Below are positions 6,086 through 12,656 of a stretch of 32,764 nt of DNA, one piece after another. Position 1 is the stretch's first letter; every line of letters starts with the position of its first letter. Position numbers and translations under genes: made by a program. A model generated the notes under the pieces. It saw nothing but the letters and a program-made list of their open reading frames with translations. It was not told the DNA's origin and did not search any database. The stretch comes from Oscillospiraceae bacterium (lineage in GTDB: Bacteria > Bacillota > Clostridia > Oscillospirales > JAAYXM01). The DNA lies in NCBI GenBank assembly GCA_017439555.1, contig JAFSIZ010000032.1, forward strand, positions 1 to 32,764, given 5' to 3'.

Positions 6086-7003
6086 TTATAAGCTGCTGAG
6101 AATAATATCGCGGTTTTCATCAGAATATTCAATTTCGGATGAAAATAAGCGCGCGAGTCCGACCTGAGTTTCAAAGCTGAGTTCGCCGTTTTCAGCAAAC
6201 AGCGCCATTCCTGCGGCGTATATGATTTCATATGCGAATGCCGCAAATGCAGCTCTTTCAGCCATTCCTTCGTCATCGGATGCGTTTGCAAAATGGCGAT
6301 AGATAAAATATACAAGCAGCTGCTCATATTCCGTTTCGCGCCCTTGTATATAAAGCGCAAAATCGTCCTTTATCGGCTGAGGCTGTGATATTTTTTCAAG
6401 CACATCTTCCCATTGGCTGTCCATGCGCTCGAGCGACATAAGGAGCGGCACATAGTGATAAACCTCGCGGAGCGGCTTTGAATTGCAGAGCGAGAGCATT
6501 TCGGTTATGCGTTCACTGATGCTTTCTGTGCGGTTCTGCAATATGGATATGATTTCATCGCGCTTCCGGATGATTTCGTCTTGGGTGTCGCCATCTCCGC
6601 TGATTTCGAGCGTCATAGGCGTCGCTTTTCCGAGAATCAGCCTTGCTGCTTCTTCGCAGCAAAGGCCGAGCCCTGTCTCTATCCTGCCGGGCAGCTCGTT
6701 GCGGAACCGCGGATGCTCTGTGCAGATATCACAGAGCGCTTCTTCGCCGAGTGTGAGAATGATATCGCAAAGATTATCGCAGTTGAGAAACGGACATCTC
6801 TCATCTTTGGTGAGAATGAAATGTGTATCACCCTCGTGTGATATGTTTTTGCAAAGCCGTTTTCCAAGCTCATCCGGAACTGTTTCATAGAAGGCGGCGG
6901 TGTCGGCATCAATATCTATCTCCCAGCCGATACAGCAATTGTGGCGGCACGATGAGGCGATGCATTTGAAATTTTTGTAGTAGTCGGGAAAAACAAAGAG
7001 CAT
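6086..7003 (-). CDS. FliB-like Cys-rich protein (flagellin lysine-N-methylase family)
   Basis: The 305-residue protein matches the FliB/lysine-N-methylase family, named for Salmonella FliB, which methylates flagellin lysines. Visible are the N-terminal CIASSCRHNCCIGWEIDID block (Cys14, 19, 23, 24, Trp27) and the second cluster CPFLNCDNLCDI...GEEALCDICTEHPRF. These resemble the CxxxCC metal-binding proteins, and a bound metal or Fe-S cluster is likely. The C-terminal half is helical and poorly conserved. No flagellar or chemotaxis gene is in the window, so the methylase name should be treated as a family label. It is transcribed divergently from the reductase operon from its own consensus promoter; a weak AAGGA lies about 9 nt before the ATG. 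Confidence 0.8.
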   Translation of the reverse strand: MLFVFPDYYKNFKCIASSCRHNCCIGWEIDIDADTAAFYETVPDELGKRLCKNISHEGDTHFILTKDERCPFLNCDNLCDIILTLGEEALCDICTEHPRFRNELPGRIETGLGLCCEEAARLILGKATPMTLEISGDGDTQDEIIRKRDEIISILQNRTESISERITEMLSLCNSKPLREVYHYVPLLMSLERMDSQWEDVLEKISQPQPIKDDFALYIQGRETEYEQLLVYFIYRHFANASDDEGMAERAAFAAFAYEIIYAAGMALFAENGELSFETQVGLARLFSSEIEYSDENRDIILSSL

Positions 7004-7034
7004 AGCTTAAAATCCTTTACATTTTTCTAAAATA

Positions 7035-7063
7035 ATTATATGCCCGGCGTATAAAGTTGTCAA
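7035..7063 (-). promoter_or_regulatory. Promoter of the FliB-like gene
   Basis: Minus strand TTGACA (7063-7058), 17-nt spacer, TATAAT (7040-7035): a perfect sigma-A consensus. It sits back to back with the promoter at 7083-7112, with only 19 nt between the two -35 boxes. Confidence 0.8.
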
Positions 7064-7082
7064 TCGCTTTCTTGGATGTGAT

Positions 7083-7112
7083 TTGACATCCGGGTATGTG
7101 AAGAGGTATAAT
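7083..7112 (+). promoter_or_regulatory. Promoter of the reductase/AcnX operon
   Basis: TTGACA at 7083-7088, an 18-nt spacer and TATAAT at 7107-7112, both boxes perfect. The leader to the ATG at 7160 is about 40 nt. This is the only good promoter seen ahead of the five-gene operon that ends at 12656. Confidence 0.8.
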
Positions 7113-7159
7113 TAAATAATTGAGAAACAGCAAGGCGAATGTAAGAGGAGTTGAAAAAT

Positions 7160-9220
7160 ATGGATCAGAAATATGAAGCATTGTTCACCCCCTGGAAAAT
7201 AGGCAATGTCGAGATAAAGAACCGCATTGTTATGTGTCCGATGGGCGGAACATCCCTTTTCGGCTGGTTTGAGCTGACGGGCTGTCATTTTGATAAGGAA
7301 GCCGCAAAGCTTTTCCTCGAGAGAGCGAAAAACAATGTCGGTCTCATCATACCTGGAATTGCGCCCTTGCGCGATACGTTCTGGGGCAAATGGCTCTGGC
7401 AGAATCCGAAAATGTTCCGTGACCTTAAGGTGTTTATGGATGAAATACATAAGACGGGGGCAAAGCTCTTCATTCAGCTGACGGCAGGTATGGGGCGCTC
7501 TTGGGCGATAACGGAGCTTGTCGCTCCCTTACACAAAAATAAATTTACCCGTGCGCTCATCAAGCCGATTATCGACACAAGCCACGAGCTTGCATCTCCT
7601 TCTCCGCAGAAATCGCGCTGGGCACACGATATTGAGTGTCCGGAGATAACAAAGGAGCAGATACACGAAATTATCGAAGCGTTCGTAAAAACCGCCAAGC
7701 TCTGCAAGGAAGCAGGGGTAGACGGTGTTGAGATTCACGCGGTTCACGAAGGCTATCTTCTCGACCAGTTCGCAATCGAATTCTTCAACAAGCGCACTGA
7801 TGAATATGGCGGAAGCTTTGAAAATCGCTATCGCTTTGCCGCAGAGATCGTCAAGGAAATCAAGAAAGCCTGCGGAAAGGATTTCCCCGTATCGCTCCGC
7901 TATTCGGTCGAATCAAAGCTCAAGGACTTCTGCTATGGCGCGATGCCCGGTGAGGATTATGTCGAGGCAGGACGCGCAATGGAGGAATCCGAAAGAGCGG
8001 CAAAATATCTGCAGGATGCGGGCTATGATATGCTCAATGCCGACAACGGAACATACGATTCGTGGTATTGGGCGCATCCGCCAATGTATATGCCGCAGAA
8101 CTGCAACCTCGACGATGTTGCACATATAAAGAAATTTGTCGATATCCCCGTTGTCTGTGCAGGCAGGATGGAGCCGGATGTCGGCGCAAAGGCAGTTGCG
8201 GATGGGCTTATTGATGCCGTCGGCGTTGCCCGTCAGTTCCTGACCGATCCCGAATGGGTGACGAAGCTTATTGAGGACAGACTTGAGGACATCAAGCCCT
8301 GCATCTGCTGTCACAGCGCTTGCTTCAACTTCTCATCCTCCAAGGGGCACGCGAACACGCAGGACCTCAAGGACACGATGGGGCTTGCGCGCTGTGCGCT
8401 CAATCCGCAGACGATGCAGTCGAAGAAATATCATATCGAGCCTGCAAAGAAACAGAAAAAGATTGCTGTTATCGGCGGCGGTATCGGTGGTATGGAGGCG
8501 GCTATCGTCTCGGCAAAGCGCGGTCACACGGTAACGCTTTACGAAAAGAGTGAGAAACTCGGCGGTGTGTTTATTGCGGCGGCGGCTCCTTCCTTCAAGG
8601 AAAAGGACAGAGCGCTCATCGCGTGGTACATCCGCGAGCTGAACAAATATCCCATTGACGTCAGGTTGAACAGCGAAATCAAGGACATTGCGGCTCTTGA
8701 TGCTGACGAGGTTATCGTTGCAACGGGTGCCGTTGCGAAGAAGATTCCCGTCAAGGGCGCGGATAAAGCGGTCGAAGCTGTCGACTATCTTCTCGGAAAC
8801 AAGACAGTTGGCGAGAATGTTGTCATCATCGGCGGCGGACTTACGGGTTGTGAGATAGCGTATGACCTCTATCTCGGCGGCAAGAAGCCGGTTATCGTCG
8901 AAATGATGGATGACCTTATCGTAACACCGGGAATTTCCCTTGCAAACACGAGCTATCTCCGCGATTTCTTCAAGACAAATAAGGTTCCGGTATATCTTGA
9001 AACCTCGCTCTCGGAAATCAATGACGGAAGCGTTACGCTTAAAGATAAGGAAGGAAAGACATTCACGGTGGATGCCGATTCCGTCATCCTCTCCGTCGGA
9101 TATAATCCTTCACCCGTTGCTCCGAAGAGCAAACATGTCCACGTTATAGGCGATGCCGCAAAGGTCGGCAACCTTCGCTCCGTCATCTGGGGCGCTTGGG
9201 ATATTGCAATGAAGCTTTAA
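7160..9220 (+). CDS. OYE-type FMN/Fe-S/FAD oxidoreductase (enoate/2,4-dienoyl-CoA reductase-like)
   Basis: The 686-residue protein has the three-part architecture of 2,4-dienoyl-CoA reductase, enoate reductase and BaiCD/BaiH. An FMN-binding old-yellow-enzyme barrel (about 1-370) opens with LFTPWKIGNVEIKNRIVMCPMG. A [4Fe-4S] motif follows (Cys381, 384, 388 and 412). Then come an FAD domain with VIGGGIGG (about 438-445) and an inserted NAD(P) domain with IIGGGLTG (about 556-563). Such enzymes reduce activated C=C bonds with NAD(P)H, or run demethylation or oxidation reactions. The fourth cluster Cys is 23 residues after the third, against about 11 in E. coli FadH. GGAG (7147-7150) is 9 nt before ATG 7160; a TTG at 7151 touches that site and was rejected. 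First gene of the operon, followed 13 nt later by the AcnX large subunit. Substrate unknown. Confidence 0.88.
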   Translation: MDQKYEALFTPWKIGNVEIKNRIVMCPMGGTSLFGWFELTGCHFDKEAAKLFLERAKNNVGLIIPGIAPLRDTFWGKWLWQNPKMFRDLKVFMDEIHKTGAKLFIQLTAGMGRSWAITELVAPLHKNKFTRALIKPIIDTSHELASPSPQKSRWAHDIECPEITKEQIHEIIEAFVKTAKLCKEAGVDGVEIHAVHEGYLLDQFAIEFFNKRTDEYGGSFENRYRFAAEIVKEIKKACGKDFPVSLRYSVESKLKDFCYGAMPGEDYVEAGRAMEESERAAKYLQDAGYDMLNADNGTYDSWYWAHPPMYMPQNCNLDDVAHIKKFVDIPVVCAGRMEPDVGAKAVADGLIDAVGVARQFLTDPEWVTKLIEDRLEDIKPCICCHSACFNFSSSKGHANTQDLKDTMGLARCALNPQTMQSKKYHIEPAKKQKKIAVIGGGIGGMEAAIVSAKRGHTVTLYEKSEKLGGVFIAAAAPSFKEKDRALIAWYIRELNKYPIDVRLNSEIKDIAALDADEVIVATGAVAKKIPVKGADKAVEAVDYLLGNKTVGENVVIIGGGLTGCEIAYDLYLGGKKPVIVEMMDDLIVTPGISLANTSYLRDFFKTNKVPVYLETSLSEINDGSVTLKDKEGKTFTVDADSVILSVGYNPSPVAPKSKHVHVIGDAAKVGNLRSVIWGAWDIAMKL

Positions 9221-9233
9221 GGAGGCGATTTTT

Positions 9234-10517
9234 ATGGCTATGATTTTAAATGAAGAACAGCAGGCGATACTTGACGGTGCTCGCGGCGAAACTATGGCAA
9301 AGGTTATGAAGACTCTTGTTATGTATGGCGAAGCTTTCGGCGCGGAAAAGCTCGTTCCCGTCACATCTGAATATAACCATCTTGTAACATCGTTCGGTCT
9401 CGGTGTCATCGAGCCCGTCTATGAGCTTATGGAAAAGCTTATAGAGGCAGGTGCGGTCTCCTCGCAGAAATTCTCGATGGATCCGCGTCCGCTTGACAAG
9501 AACGTCCCGCAGAATTTATTGCAGAAGCTCGTTTTCAAGAAGTTTATGTATAACAAGCAGGATTTCTATGAAGGTCAGCTTGAAAAGCTCGGACTTATGG
9601 ACAAGGATGCATTCACCTGCACCTGCTATATGGATGAGGTCGGAAACAAGCCGAAATTCGGAGATGTTCTCAGCTGGGCGGAATCCTCGGCAGTCGTCTA
9701 TGCAAACAGCGTCATAGGCGCACGCTGCAACCGCAACTCGGGAATCATTGACCTTATGGGCTCGATTGTCGGATGCGTTCCGTATTTCGGGCTTCTGACG
9801 GATGAGGGAAGACGCGCTTCTTGGATTGTCCGCGTCGAGACAACGAAGAAGCCTGAAGCTCAGCTTCTCGGTTCTGCGATTGGAATGAAGGTAATGGAGG
9901 ATGTGCCTTATGTCGAAGGTCTCGACAAATGGCTCGGAACAGAGCTTTCCGACAGCGCCTGCACATATCTCAAGGACTTCGGCGCCGCAACCGCTTCAAA
10001 CGGCGCGGTAGGTCTTTACCACATCGATAACCTTACGCCCGAAGCAAAGCTTCAGGGAAAAGAACTCATCCGTGAGGATGCGAAGGTATATGTCATAGAC
10101 GATGAGGAGCTTGCCCGCGTTCAGAGGGAATACCCGATAGTCTGGAAAAATCCCGATGCAAGCCCGAAGCTCTGCTTTGTCGGTTGCCCCCATATGTCAT
10201 TGCGCCAGCTTATCGACTGGACAGAGAATCTTGAAAAAGCGTTCTCCGAAAACGGCAGAAAAAAGGTCACGGTTCCGACGGTATTTACAGCGGCACCCGG
10301 AGTGCTTGAAAAATTCAATGCAACGGAATATGCTGAAAAGCTCAAGTCCTTCGGTGTCATAACCTCATATATATGTCCGCTTATGTATATGAACAATCCA
10401 ATGTGCGCGAAAATGCCGGTTATAACATCGTCAAACAAGCTCCGCACATATACAACCGCAAAATATTACAGAGATGAAGAAATTCTTTCAATTATAACGG
10501 GAGGTGAGCGCAAATGA
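9234..10517 (+). CDS. Aconitase X catalytic (large) subunit, DUF521
   Basis: The 427-residue protein matches the AcnX catalytic domain (formerly DUF521). The key block is AFTCTCYMDEVG, then SWAESSAVVYANSVIGARCNRNSG, with GCPHMSLRQL and an ITSYICPLM segment later. The Cys in these three places are where the family binds its Fe or Fe-S centre. Known AcnX enzymes are dehydratases: cis-3-hydroxy-L-proline dehydratase in bacteria and phosphomevalonate dehydratase in archaea. Some positions differ from the family pattern as I remember it (GARCNR for GARTNR, a Tyr-Ile-Cys for Asp-Thr-Cys near the end), so the substrate could be different. AAGGAGG at 9219-9225 sets the ATG at 9234. It overlaps the small-subunit gene by 4 nt (ATGA), as expected for a 1:1 complex. 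Confidence 0.88.
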   Translation: MAMILNEEQQAILDGARGETMAKVMKTLVMYGEAFGAEKLVPVTSEYNHLVTSFGLGVIEPVYELMEKLIEAGAVSSQKFSMDPRPLDKNVPQNLLQKLVFKKFMYNKQDFYEGQLEKLGLMDKDAFTCTCYMDEVGNKPKFGDVLSWAESSAVVYANSVIGARCNRNSGIIDLMGSIVGCVPYFGLLTDEGRRASWIVRVETTKKPEAQLLGSAIGMKVMEDVPYVEGLDKWLGTELSDSACTYLKDFGAATASNGAVGLYHIDNLTPEAKLQGKELIREDAKVYVIDDEELARVQREYPIVWKNPDASPKLCFVGCPHMSLRQLIDWTENLEKAFSENGRKKVTVPTVFTAAPGVLEKFNATEYAEKLKSFGVITSYICPLMYMNNPMCAKMPVITSSNKLRTYTTAKYYRDEEILSIITGGERK

Positions 10518-10957
10518 AGAAGTTTCAGGGAAGAGTTGTAACTCCGGGAAAGGCGTGTGCCGAGGCGCTCGTCTCAAAGGGCGGACTTAATACGCTCGCA
10601 TCCTTCCAGAAGCCGCTTCAGTTCGGAGACAAGACAGCGAAATGCGGAGATCAGAATAACCCCGATCTTTATGGCAAGCCGATGGCCGGAAAGGCTCTCT
10701 GCATTCCGCAGACGATTGGCTCGACAACGGGCGGAATGGTTCTCTATTGCGCTTGTGCAATGAAGAGAAACCCTGCCTGCATCTTGTTCTCTAAGCCGAT
10801 AGATTCGCTCGCGGCGGCAGGTGCTGTGCTTGCGGATGTCTGGGTCGACGGTGTCTCGATGCCGGTTGTCGATTCGCTAGGTGATGAGTTCCTTGACTAT
10901 GTCAAGGACGGAATGAAAATAACCGTCGGAGAAGACGGTGTTGTTGAGGTAGAATAA
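10514..10957 (+). CDS. Aconitase X swivel (small) subunit, DUF126
   Basis: The 147-residue protein matches the AcnX swivel domain (DUF126), which supplies part of the active site to the catalytic subunit encoded just upstream. It starts with the family-like beta strand FQGRVVTPGKACAEALVS. It keeps the DLYGKPMAGKALCIPQ stretch and the Ser/Thr-rich turn IGSTTGGMVL, which corresponds to the substrate-binding Ser loop (G-R-G-S-S-S-type) of the family. ASAGAVL-like IDSLAAAGAVLADV and PVVDSLGDE follow. GGAGGTG at 10500-10506 precedes the ATG, which overlaps the large-subunit stop (ATGA). Split subunits are one of the two common arrangements; in others the two are fused. Confidence 0.88.
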   Translation: MKKFQGRVVTPGKACAEALVSKGGLNTLASFQKPLQFGDKTAKCGDQNNPDLYGKPMAGKALCIPQTIGSTTGGMVLYCACAMKRNPACILFSKPIDSLAAAGAVLADVWVDGVSMPVVDSLGDEFLDYVKDGMKITVGEDGVVEVE

Positions 10958-10959
10958 AA

Positions 10960-11217
10960 ATGCGATACTCATATAAAACGCGCGGTGTCTGTGCTATGCA
11001 GATAAATTTTGATATTGACGGCGAGGTTATCTCAAACATAGAATTCCTCGGCGGTTGCAACGGAAATCTCAAGGCGATCTCAAAGCTTTGCGAGGGTATG
11101 ACTGTTTCGGAAATCGAGGAAAAGCTCCTCGGCAACACCTGCGGATATAAGGACACATCCTGCGCTGATCAGTTTGCAAAAGCAGTTAGGCGCGCGGCAA
11201 GCGGTGAAAATAGATGA
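10960..11217 (+). CDS. TSCPD-domain small protein (TIGR03905 family)
   Basis: This 85-residue protein matches TIGR03905/TSCPD proteins, small Cys-rich proteins of unknown role related to the C-terminal tail of B12-dependent ribonucleotide reductases. Conserved features are FLGGCNGNLKAISKL (Cys33), LLGNTCGYKDTSCADQ (Cys61, Cys68) and the EGMTVSEIEEKL helix between them. The name motif reads TSCAD here, so the Pro is Ala. Cys11 and Cys44 are extra. A metal-binding or Fe-S-related role is plausible but unproven. The ATG lies 3 nt after the AcnX small-subunit stop and its own stop overlaps the next ATG by 4 nt, so it is translationally coupled within the operon. Confidence 0.85.
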   Translation: MRYSYKTRGVCAMQINFDIDGEVISNIEFLGGCNGNLKAISKLCEGMTVSEIEEKLLGNTCGYKDTSCADQFAKAVRRAASGENR

Positions 11218-12656
11218 AGAAAACCTATGTGACAACAATGCCCGATCATATCGGCGCATTCCTGAAGGCGAGCCGATGCTTTGAGTCTCTTGGGCTCAAT
11301 ATAACGAGAGTAAGCTATAATAAAGCGGTTGATGTCAACACGCTTTTTATAGATGTTGAGGGCGAAAAAGATAAGCTTGAGCTTGCGGAGCTTCAGCTTC
11401 GGGAAATCGGATATCTCAGAAATACCGCGGAGGAAAAGAGCGTTGTTCTGCTTGAATTTCGCTTGCTTGATGTTCCGGGAAGCGTCACTGATGTGCTTGA
11501 GCTTATTGATGAGTTCAAGTTCAACATATCCTATATAAGCTCGCAGGAAAACGGAACTGAATATCAGCTTTTCAAGATGGGGCTCTTTGTCGAGCATCCG
11601 GATAAAATCACGGAGTTTTTAAGCCGTGCGGAAAAGCTCTGCGATGTGAGGGTCATAGATTATAACCGCTCGGAAAAGATCTTTGACAACAGTATATTCT
11701 ATAATTCGTTTGTTTCAAGCCTTGTTGAAACAATGCAGATATCCGAGGAGAACAAGAACGCCTTGCTCGTCAATGCTAATCTTGCGATGCAAACGCTTGA
11801 TGAAACCGGGCTTTCTCCTTATCGGACGTTTGACAGCATAAGCAAATTTGCAGAGCTTCTCGCAGCCTGCCGCGGCGAGGCGTTCAATCCGAGAATAACG
11901 CGCCACGAAATCTCAGAGAATACGGATATTCTGCTCATAGAGCCGCCCTGCGGAAGTAACACGATGATTATAAGAAGCGGCGGAAAACTCTTGTTTATAG
12001 ACAGCGGATATGCCTGCTATAAAGAAGAGATGCTTCGGCTTTTTGAGAAAATTCTTCCCGAATATAAAACCGCGGAAAAGAAAATTCTCATAACTCACGC
12101 AGACCTTGACCACTGTGGGCTTCTTTCTGAGTTCGAAGAGGTTATAGCGAGCGAAAAAACAAAGGAGTGCCTCGCTCTCGAGTTTGAGGAGCAGGGAGGA
12201 TTCCGTGAAAGAAACGCGCTCCATAAGCCATATATCGGGATATGCAAGATATTGACTTCGTATGAACCGTGCAATCCCGAAAAGATCAAGGCACCTTGGA
12301 AAAGCGCAGAAAAAAGCGCGGCTCCGCTTTGCCAGACAGGCTTCTTTGATTTTGGAGAGCTTCATTTTGAAGTATATGAGGGCAGCGGCGGTCACCTTTC
12401 GGGTGAAACTGTTCTCATTGATTATCAGCACCATATCGCCTTTACGGGTGACATATATATAAACCTCAAGGGTATGACACCCGAGCAGGCGAAATATAAC
12501 ACCTATGCTCCCATTCTTATGACCTCTGTAGATACAGACCCTGTATTGTGTGCAGAGGAGAGGCGGGCAGTGCTTCAGCGTCTCGGCGCAGGAGGCTGGA
12601 AGATTTTCGGCTCACACGGCGCCGCAAAAGAATATTCTGTCAATATAGAAAAATAG
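11214..12656 (+). CDS. ACT-ACT-metallo-beta-lactamase fold fusion protein
   Basis: The 480-residue protein has two N-terminal ACT-like domains: about 3-70, with a DHIGAFLKASRCFESLGLNI loop-helix, and about 79-150, with DVPGSVTDVLELIDEF. A helical linker follows, then a metallo-beta-lactamase fold. The metal motifs are THADLDHCG (His295, Asp297, Asp299, His300), GGHLSGET (His394), FTGDIY (Asp413) and GSHG (His468). The first motif is HxDxDH rather than HxHxDH, a variant also seen in ComEC-like proteins. ACT domains usually bind amino acids, so a hydrolase or sensor gated by an amino acid is a reasonable guess. No specific function can be named. It overlaps the TSCPD gene by 4 nt and ends the operon at a strong terminator. 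Confidence 0.8.
   Translation: MKKTYVTTMPDHIGAFLKASRCFESLGLNITRVSYNKAVDVNTLFIDVEGEKDKLELAELQLREIGYLRNTAEEKSVVLLEFRLLDVPGSVTDVLELIDEFKFNISYISSQENGTEYQLFKMGLFVEHPDKITEFLSRAEKLCDVRVIDYNRSEKIFDNSIFYNSFVSSLVETMQISEENKNALLVNANLAMQTLDETGLSPYRTFDSISKFAELLAACRGEAFNPRITRHEISENTDILLIEPPCGSNTMIIRSGGKLLFIDSGYACYKEEMLRLFEKILPEYKTAEKKILITHADLDHCGLLSEFEEVIASEKTKECLALEFEEQGGFRERNALHKPYIGICKILTSYEPCNPEKIKAPWKSAEKSAAPLCQTGFFDFGELHFEVYEGSGGHLSGETVLIDYQHHIAFTGDIYINLKGMTPEQAKYNTYAPILMTSVDTDPVLCAEERRAVLQRLGAGGWKIFGSHGAAKEYSVNIEK

Follow-up and report, generated by a model that had tools for sequence, protein, structure and literature searches.

Here we describe a gene, referred to below as ACT-MBL, that encodes two ACT units, a helical linker and a metallo-beta-lactamase (MBL) fold in a single chain, and that probably assists gut bacteria in producing isoleucine from 2-methylbutyrate. 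We propose this role because relatives of the gene share an RNA sensor of isoleucine shortage with an enzyme that resembles those activating 2-methylbutyrate. Our computational analysis shows the architecture, an invariant metal set, linkage to an acyl-CoA synthetase and isoleucine T-boxes in relatives. The fuller explanation, that ACT-MBL is an ACT-gated bimetal hydrolase within the isoleucine T-box regulon, serving the salvage of 2-methylbutyrate to isoleucine, is given about even confidence.

Architecture of the ACT-MBL protein

The gene lies in a stretch of 32,764 nucleotides from an Oscillospiraceae bacterium (assembly GCA_017439555.1, contig JAFSIZ010000032.1), which is called the window. 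The features concerned are the following.

10960..11217, + strand: TSCPD-domain gene; overlaps the ACT-MBL start by 4 bp (ATGA); host-specific
11214..12656, + strand: ACT-ACT-helical linker-MBL gene (P0001); from the ORF list, Pfam, AlphaFold2 and homologues
11214..11417, + strand: first ACT-like unit, residues 1-68; from models, the AcuB ACT match and invariant columns
11439..11666, + strand: second ACT unit, residues 76-151, with DxPGxV and NISY motifs; from Pfam ACT, the AHAS subunit match and the IlvN alignment
11691..11867, + strand: helical linker, residues 160-218; from the AlphaFold2 model
11892..12641, + strand: MBL fold, residues 227-476; from Pfam Lactamase_B and PDB matches (Z 17-18)
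12096..12113, + strand: motif H295-A-D297-L-D299-H300 (HxDxDH); from alignments
12393..12395, + strand: predicted metal ligand H394 (GGH); from the 40-row alignment
12450..12452, + strand: predicted bridging ligand D413 (TGD); from the 40-row alignment
12615..12617, + strand: predicted metal ligand H468 (GSHG); from the 40-row alignment

The open reading frame is intact, its 480 codons (window 11214-12656, +) specifying a 480-residue protein. Pfam Lactamase_B matched residues 245-414 with 31.5 bits, as compared to a cut-off of 22.7. Pfam ACT matched residues 79-119 with 25.8 bits against a cut-off of 27 when the whole protein was scanned, and with 30.4 bits, over the cut-off, when the N-terminal 157 residues were scanned alone; the ACT match was obtained in all 39 of the 39 aligned ACT-MBL N-termini. 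An AlphaFold2 model, for which a 40-row alignment was the input (mean pLDDT 81), showed a strand-helix-strand-strand-helix order over residues 2-64, a full beta-alpha-beta-beta-alpha-beta unit over residues 76-151, helices over residues 160-218 and then an alpha-beta-beta-alpha MBL fold over residues 227-476. A separate AlphaFold2-type model of the N-terminus alone again gave two ACT-like units.

Comparison with the PDB by VIA-align matched the first unit to the ACT domain of AcuB (residues 1-69, Z 10.1, 2.2 A) and the second to the regulatory ACT domain of acetohydroxyacid synthase (AHAS; residues 74-151, Z 10.9, 1.8 A). The N-terminal model as a whole matched the tandem-ACT proteins 2F06, 1U8S and 2NYI in the PDB across almost its full length. 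The sequence-only reading had placed two ACT-like domains ahead of the MBL fold, and Pfam, AlphaFold2 and the PDB matches bear it out: both units, and with them the N-terminal 150 residues, take ACT folds in the models and in the structure comparison. Nor does the fusion appear to be a well-described family, since no description of an ACT-MBL family, or of a T-box-controlled one, was found in the openly licensed literature, which gave sparse returns.

The first ACT unit holds family-invariant residues at G14, N29, I30, R32, Y35, K37 and D40. In the putative amino-acid sites of the ACT pair, the ligand-loop positions are conserved. The second unit is among the closest to IlvN/IlvH in both sequence and fold and keeps the Asn and the PG loop, while the Pfam ACT_AHAS_ss cut-off of 27 bits was not reached (16.8 and 21.5 bits). 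Unlike IlvN/IlvH, the ACT part of ACT-MBL is fused to a hydrolase fold and has no AHAS catalytic subunit adjacent to it, and its ligand is only putative. Two tandem ACT units likewise make up BT0572 (2F06) and the GcvR-like 1U8S, but these are without an enzyme domain.

A recurrent acyl-CoA synthetase partner

A survey of occurrence and neighbours, suggested along with the sequence-only reading, found ACT-MBL in 37 of the 391 class genomes sampled, and its recurrent neighbour in relatives was an HTH-cupin-AMP-ligase fusion on the same strand, that is, an HTH-cupin acyl-CoA synthetase. The synthetase lay within 800 bp of ACT-MBL in 18 of 66 dereplicated loci, which fall in two well-separated clades and show both gene orders; in a tree test, none of 500 sets of shuffled labels clustered as tightly as synthetase adjacency. 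With the synthetase upstream, the two genes overlapped by up to 3 bp or stood as much as about 140 bp apart, L005 being wider at 458 bp; with it downstream, they were separated by about 380-430 bp. In Ruminococcus flavefaciens, ACT-MBL and the synthetase overlap or lie directly against each other. At E<=1e-200, the synthetase was present in 36 of the 37 genomes carrying ACT-MBL as compared to 149 of 354 others, and the closest synthetase clade co-occurred in 17/28 versus 20/363 genomes, kinship being ignored in both comparisons. Among genomes in which an Ile-type synthetase was not beside ACT-MBL, we found no recurring gene that took the place of ACT-MBL after the synthetase.

The nearest structure to the ligase part was 3ETC (680 bits, the next best being 386), which is MacsMa, an enzyme whose preferred substrate is 2-methylbutyrate (PMC10455477). 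The nearest NCBIfam model of the synthetase was MbcS, which activates 2-methylbutyrate and isobutyrate (PMC10026030).

T-box leaders with isoleucine specifiers

T-box leaders were identified with Rfam RF00230 (gathering score 93), and their specifiers were read against the Rfam alignment or by positional scan. Such leaders precede the synthetases adjoining ACT-MBL, with an AUC (isoleucine) specifier in L028, L005, L022, L082, L128 and L131. Among the ligases adjoining ACT-MBL, all those whose leader gave a plausible specifier had AUC, L032 and L138 being unreadable by positional scan. An isoleucine T-box also stands directly before ACT-MBL at loci where no synthetase is next to it. In L033 this leader spans 214-477 and scores 111 bits, with the gene starting at 533 and AUC as the specifier; in L130 (90.3 bits) and L019 (85.3 bits) an AUC T-box directly before ACT-MBL falls under the gathering score. 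Between the isoleucine T-box and ACT-MBL of L130 (6090-6290) there is a short frame, MDYSLHLPYPI followed by a stop, which by eye looks like the decayed start of an HTH-cupin ligase.

Leaders of other ligases served as controls of the register. The T-box of PaaK, a phenylacetate-CoA ligase, carries UUC (Phe) in L019 (10671-12328) and L082 (10548-12220), and UUC in this place fits phenylalanine being made from phenylacetate. The T-box of an R. flavefaciens xylose-isomerase-like AMP-ligase carries CUC (Leu); in R. flavefaciens 007c (L028, 8616-11548) the gene behind this CUC T-box fuses a xylose-isomerase-like TIM barrel to an AMP-ligase, and it is a candidate isovalerate ligase for leucine. On contig C56 of the host (L157, 1669-6960), tandem HTH-cupin-AMP-ligases have T-boxes of their own, the first with AUC and the second with GUA (Val). 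The two different specifiers on these tandem copies suggest that the host has separate ligases for 2-methylbutyrate and isobutyrate.

T-box specifiers label four acid-CoA ligases by end product: isoleucine and valine for the two HTH-cupin ligases, leucine for the TIM-barrel ligase and phenylalanine for PaaK. For the route from branched-chain acids to amino acids, this gives candidate genes and regulators along with a so far unstudied partner; the ACT-MBL fusion is the unexplained part of its isoleucine branch.

Membership of the isoleucine T-box regulon was found in relatives and not for the copy in the window. In the window, RF00230 was not matched and no antiterminator motif was found within 450 nt upstream of ACT-MBL; a synthetase is not adjacent either, the host's Ile-type synthetase being on another contig, C56. 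Since the window copy has neither a T-box nor an adjacent ligase, the case for the function of ACT-MBL rests on its relatives. In the clades that carry the leader, we regard the link of ACT-MBL to the isoleucine T-box regulon as highly likely. The leader is standard and its specifier is AUC, as in other T-box-controlled branched-chain amino-acid genes; unlike those, the gene controlled here is the ACT-MBL fusion itself or an acid-CoA ligase operon that holds it. The amino-acid gating suggested by the sequence-only reading thereby gains support and is narrowed to isoleucine by the AUC leaders; that what is gated is a hydrolase, we still infer.

A proposed role in making isoleucine from 2-methylbutyrate

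For ruminococci, branched-chain volatile fatty acids serve as growth factors and as precursors of isoleucine, valine and leucine, 2-methylbutyrate being the precursor of isoleucine and isobutyrate that of valine (PMC7356843). This ruminococcal need has been known since the 1960s (PMC7356843, citing Allison 1962). Neither ilvC nor ilvD was detected in the host genome, which is 84% complete, while both were present in 14 of 14 control genomes. In the class sample, ilvC was absent from 31 of 37 genomes with ACT-MBL as compared to 154 of 354 others (p 3e-6, kinship ignored); when a completeness of at least 90% was required, the contrast was modest (15/21 versus 121/296, p 0.01). A gene for the IlvE transaminase adjoins ACT-MBL in L009.

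In the rumen, the CoA ester of the acid is reductively carboxylated and then transaminated to isoleucine. We propose that the HTH-cupin ligase would activate 2-methylbutyrate, whose CoA ester would follow this course. Uncharged tRNA-Ile would induce the ligase operon through the T-box and, in clades with the leader, the ACT-MBL protein would likewise be made under isoleucine limitation. The ACT pair may bind isoleucine or a near relative and so change the activity of the hydrolase, for which the putative substrate is 2-methylbutyryl-CoA or some related adduct or thioester of the pathway. Given such a substrate, ACT-MBL would set the amount of activated acid that is kept once isoleucine is sufficient. 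Either sign of control is possible: if isoleucine activates hydrolysis, ACT-MBL would be a relief valve, and if isoleucine inhibits it, a supply step. Were isoleucine to gate the hydrolase, this would be, to our knowledge, the first MBL enzyme under ACT control, no earlier case being known to us. A more specific form of the proposal is only tentative: an isoleucine-gated thioesterase and the HTH-cupin ligase would together make a substrate cycle, in which the T-box senses uncharged tRNA-Ile and the ACT pair senses free isoleucine, and which would control the amount of 2-methylbutyrate converted to isoleucine by bacteria of the rumen and gut. ACT-MBL, with its MBL fold and HxDxDH site, would then be a new type of allosteric metallohydrolase.

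Somewhat less likely than that cycle is that ACT-MBL is a supply enzyme of the isoleucine regulon, whose hydrolysis would yield 2-methylbutyrate or another precursor and which isoleucine would feedback-inhibit through the ACT pair. T-box induction on isoleucine starvation, combined with a regulatory domain that binds an amino acid, is the usual logic of feedback inhibition, and ilvC is mostly absent from the carriers. Such an enzyme sits poorly with the route, in which we know of no step from 2-methylbutyrate to isoleucine that requires a hydrolase, and with the loci, as no conserved second enzyme that would feed it a substrate was seen among the neighbours examined.

An invariant metal site with a variant motif

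H295, D297, D299, H300, H394, D413 and H468 are invariant both in the 40-row alignment and in a 16-row alignment of ACT-MBL relatives which reaches down to 21% identity; D263 is invariant too in the 40-row alignment. The motifs HxDxDH, GGH, GD and GSH had thus been read correctly from the sequence, all the ligands being retained in both alignments. The second His of HxHxDH, the hallmark of the MBL superfamily, is replaced by Asp in 70 of 70 ACT-MBL members counted, and the hallmark is thus lacking. By comparison, 11 of the 12 other MBL-domain genes of the host carry HxHxDH and the twelfth, flavodiiron-like, carries HxExDH. Membership of the MBL-fold superfamily is nevertheless supported by the Pfam match over cut-off, by matches of the MBL part to many MBL structures in the PDB at Z of about 17-18, and by the invariant ligands.

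All the ligands of the predicted metal site are invariant throughout the family, which favours catalysis. It is improbable, in our view, that ACT-MBL is instead a non-catalytic metal or ligand sensor, or a deacylator of the synthetase, with the ACT pair signalling isoleucine to the synthetase. The tight and repeated linkage to a synthetase that is itself fused to HTH and cupin domains would suit such a regulator, as would the unusual change of the second His to Asp, but a full metal set held down to 21% identity argues for catalysis and ACT-MBL persists where no synthetase is adjacent.

Zinc lactamases and flavodiiron proteins tie as structural matches in the PDB (Thermotoga flavodiiron chains, Z 17.0-17.3), and so the fold names neither the metal nor the reaction. 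The NCBIfam models of class B beta-lactamases remained under cut-off (17.6 versus 100 and 16.6 versus 200 bits). Class B lactamases, glyoxalase II and lactonases share with ACT-MBL the fold, the order of motifs and the bimetal ligand positions, but not the Asp that always replaces the second His. That replacement is found in the C-terminal MBL domain of ComEC, the DNA uptake nuclease, in which a conserved Asp stands in place of the same His and the metal site is predicted to be kept (PMC5031224); ComEC, unlike ACT-MBL, is a membrane protein without ACT domains. In the ComEC-like protein of the host itself, the motif is HAHADH.

A di-iron site stays in contention, since acidic ligand sets of MBL-type sites tend to hold iron (PMC7785958). 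With four His and three Asp, the ACT-MBL set equals in acidity the set found in flavodiiron proteins, which is H, E, D, H, H, D, H with Glu at the variable position (PMC6033852). ACT-MBL would then be a redox or oxygen sensor of the flavodiiron or ODP kind with an ACT input, a reading we rate slightly lower again than the non-catalytic regulator. Like flavodiiron proteins and ODP, it has a carboxylate in motif 2 at the second position, and its fold score is similar; the Thermotoga chains are among its best matches, and Pfam ODP was matched weakly. Against this, the residue is Asp rather than the Glu of HxExDH in all members, no flavodoxin domain was matched by Pfam, the ComEC-type domains share the Asp with a divalent metal site predicted, and zinc enzymes match the fold equally well. 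Identity with the ODP oxygen sensor itself was rejected, as Pfam ODP gave 19 bits against a cut-off of 27.2.

Distribution and spread

Relatives of ACT-MBL were found at 41 named loci, mostly in ruminant-gut Clostridia, R. flavefaciens 007c having two copies. Together with the 37 class genomes, this recurrence shows that the fusion is no chance product. The gene was present in 16 of 59 near relatives and in 8 of 398 genomes of the phylum. A Methanosphaera rumen plasmid, the only plasmid found and seen in two versions, carries a copy with 37% identity. No relative was found on the viral contigs searched. L088 holds a distant member (about 21-27% identity) that keeps an ACT domain and the MBL fold; in this locus, from another genus (6749-8203, -), an upstream stop seems to cut the first ACT unit, perhaps by a frameshift.

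In a maximum-likelihood tree, copies from the genus of the window fall in several separate places, which suggests that ACT-MBL has spread horizontally. That it is merely a horizontally moving stand-alone hydrolase with no fixed pathway and an accidental synthetase link is very improbable: its patchy presence, the scatter over the tree and unrelated neighbours at many loci would agree with this, but the isoleucine T-box directly before ACT-MBL where no synthetase adjoins, the apparent remnant of a synthetase start in L130 (by eye) and the synthetase adjacency in separate clades and both orders speak against it.

On contigs longer than 15 kb, 11 of 52 ACT-MBL genes lay no more than 1 kb from the end of the contig, as compared to 2.2 expected (L004, L010, L013, L015, L025, L026, L031, L033, L038, L040 and G044). 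Something near the gene perhaps breaks assemblies, whether repeats, strain variation or mobility.

A divergent clade (L073-L076, L119-L121 and the Methanosphaera locus L063) showed neither synthetase adjacency nor a T-box, and its members may do something else. L063 is plasmid pNP174 of Methanosphaera sp. ISO3-F5, where ACT-MBL is annotated merely as an MBL fold metallo-hydrolase. An aldo/keto reductase is found near this copy, and an aldo/keto-reductase-like gene adjoins the divergent-clade copy in L074. As a common partner of the clade the reductase was dropped, being beside L074 and L063 only.

Neighbourhood in the window

Upstream of ACT-MBL and on the same strand, the window carries a flavin oxidoreductase (7151-9220), the AcnX large subunit (9234-10517) and the AcnX swivel subunit (10514-10957), followed by the TSCPD-domain gene. 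This string was absent beside every other ACT-MBL locus examined, including that of a sister species (74% identity), and therefore says little about function; as a functional partner it was rejected, not being conserved at other loci. The AcnX proteins (within window 7151-10957, +) resemble cis-3-hydroxy-L-proline dehydratase, under the NCBIfam cut-off. Further upstream, on the opposite strand (window 6086-7003, -), there is a strong NCBIfam match (222 bits) to the flagellin lysine-N-methylase FliB.
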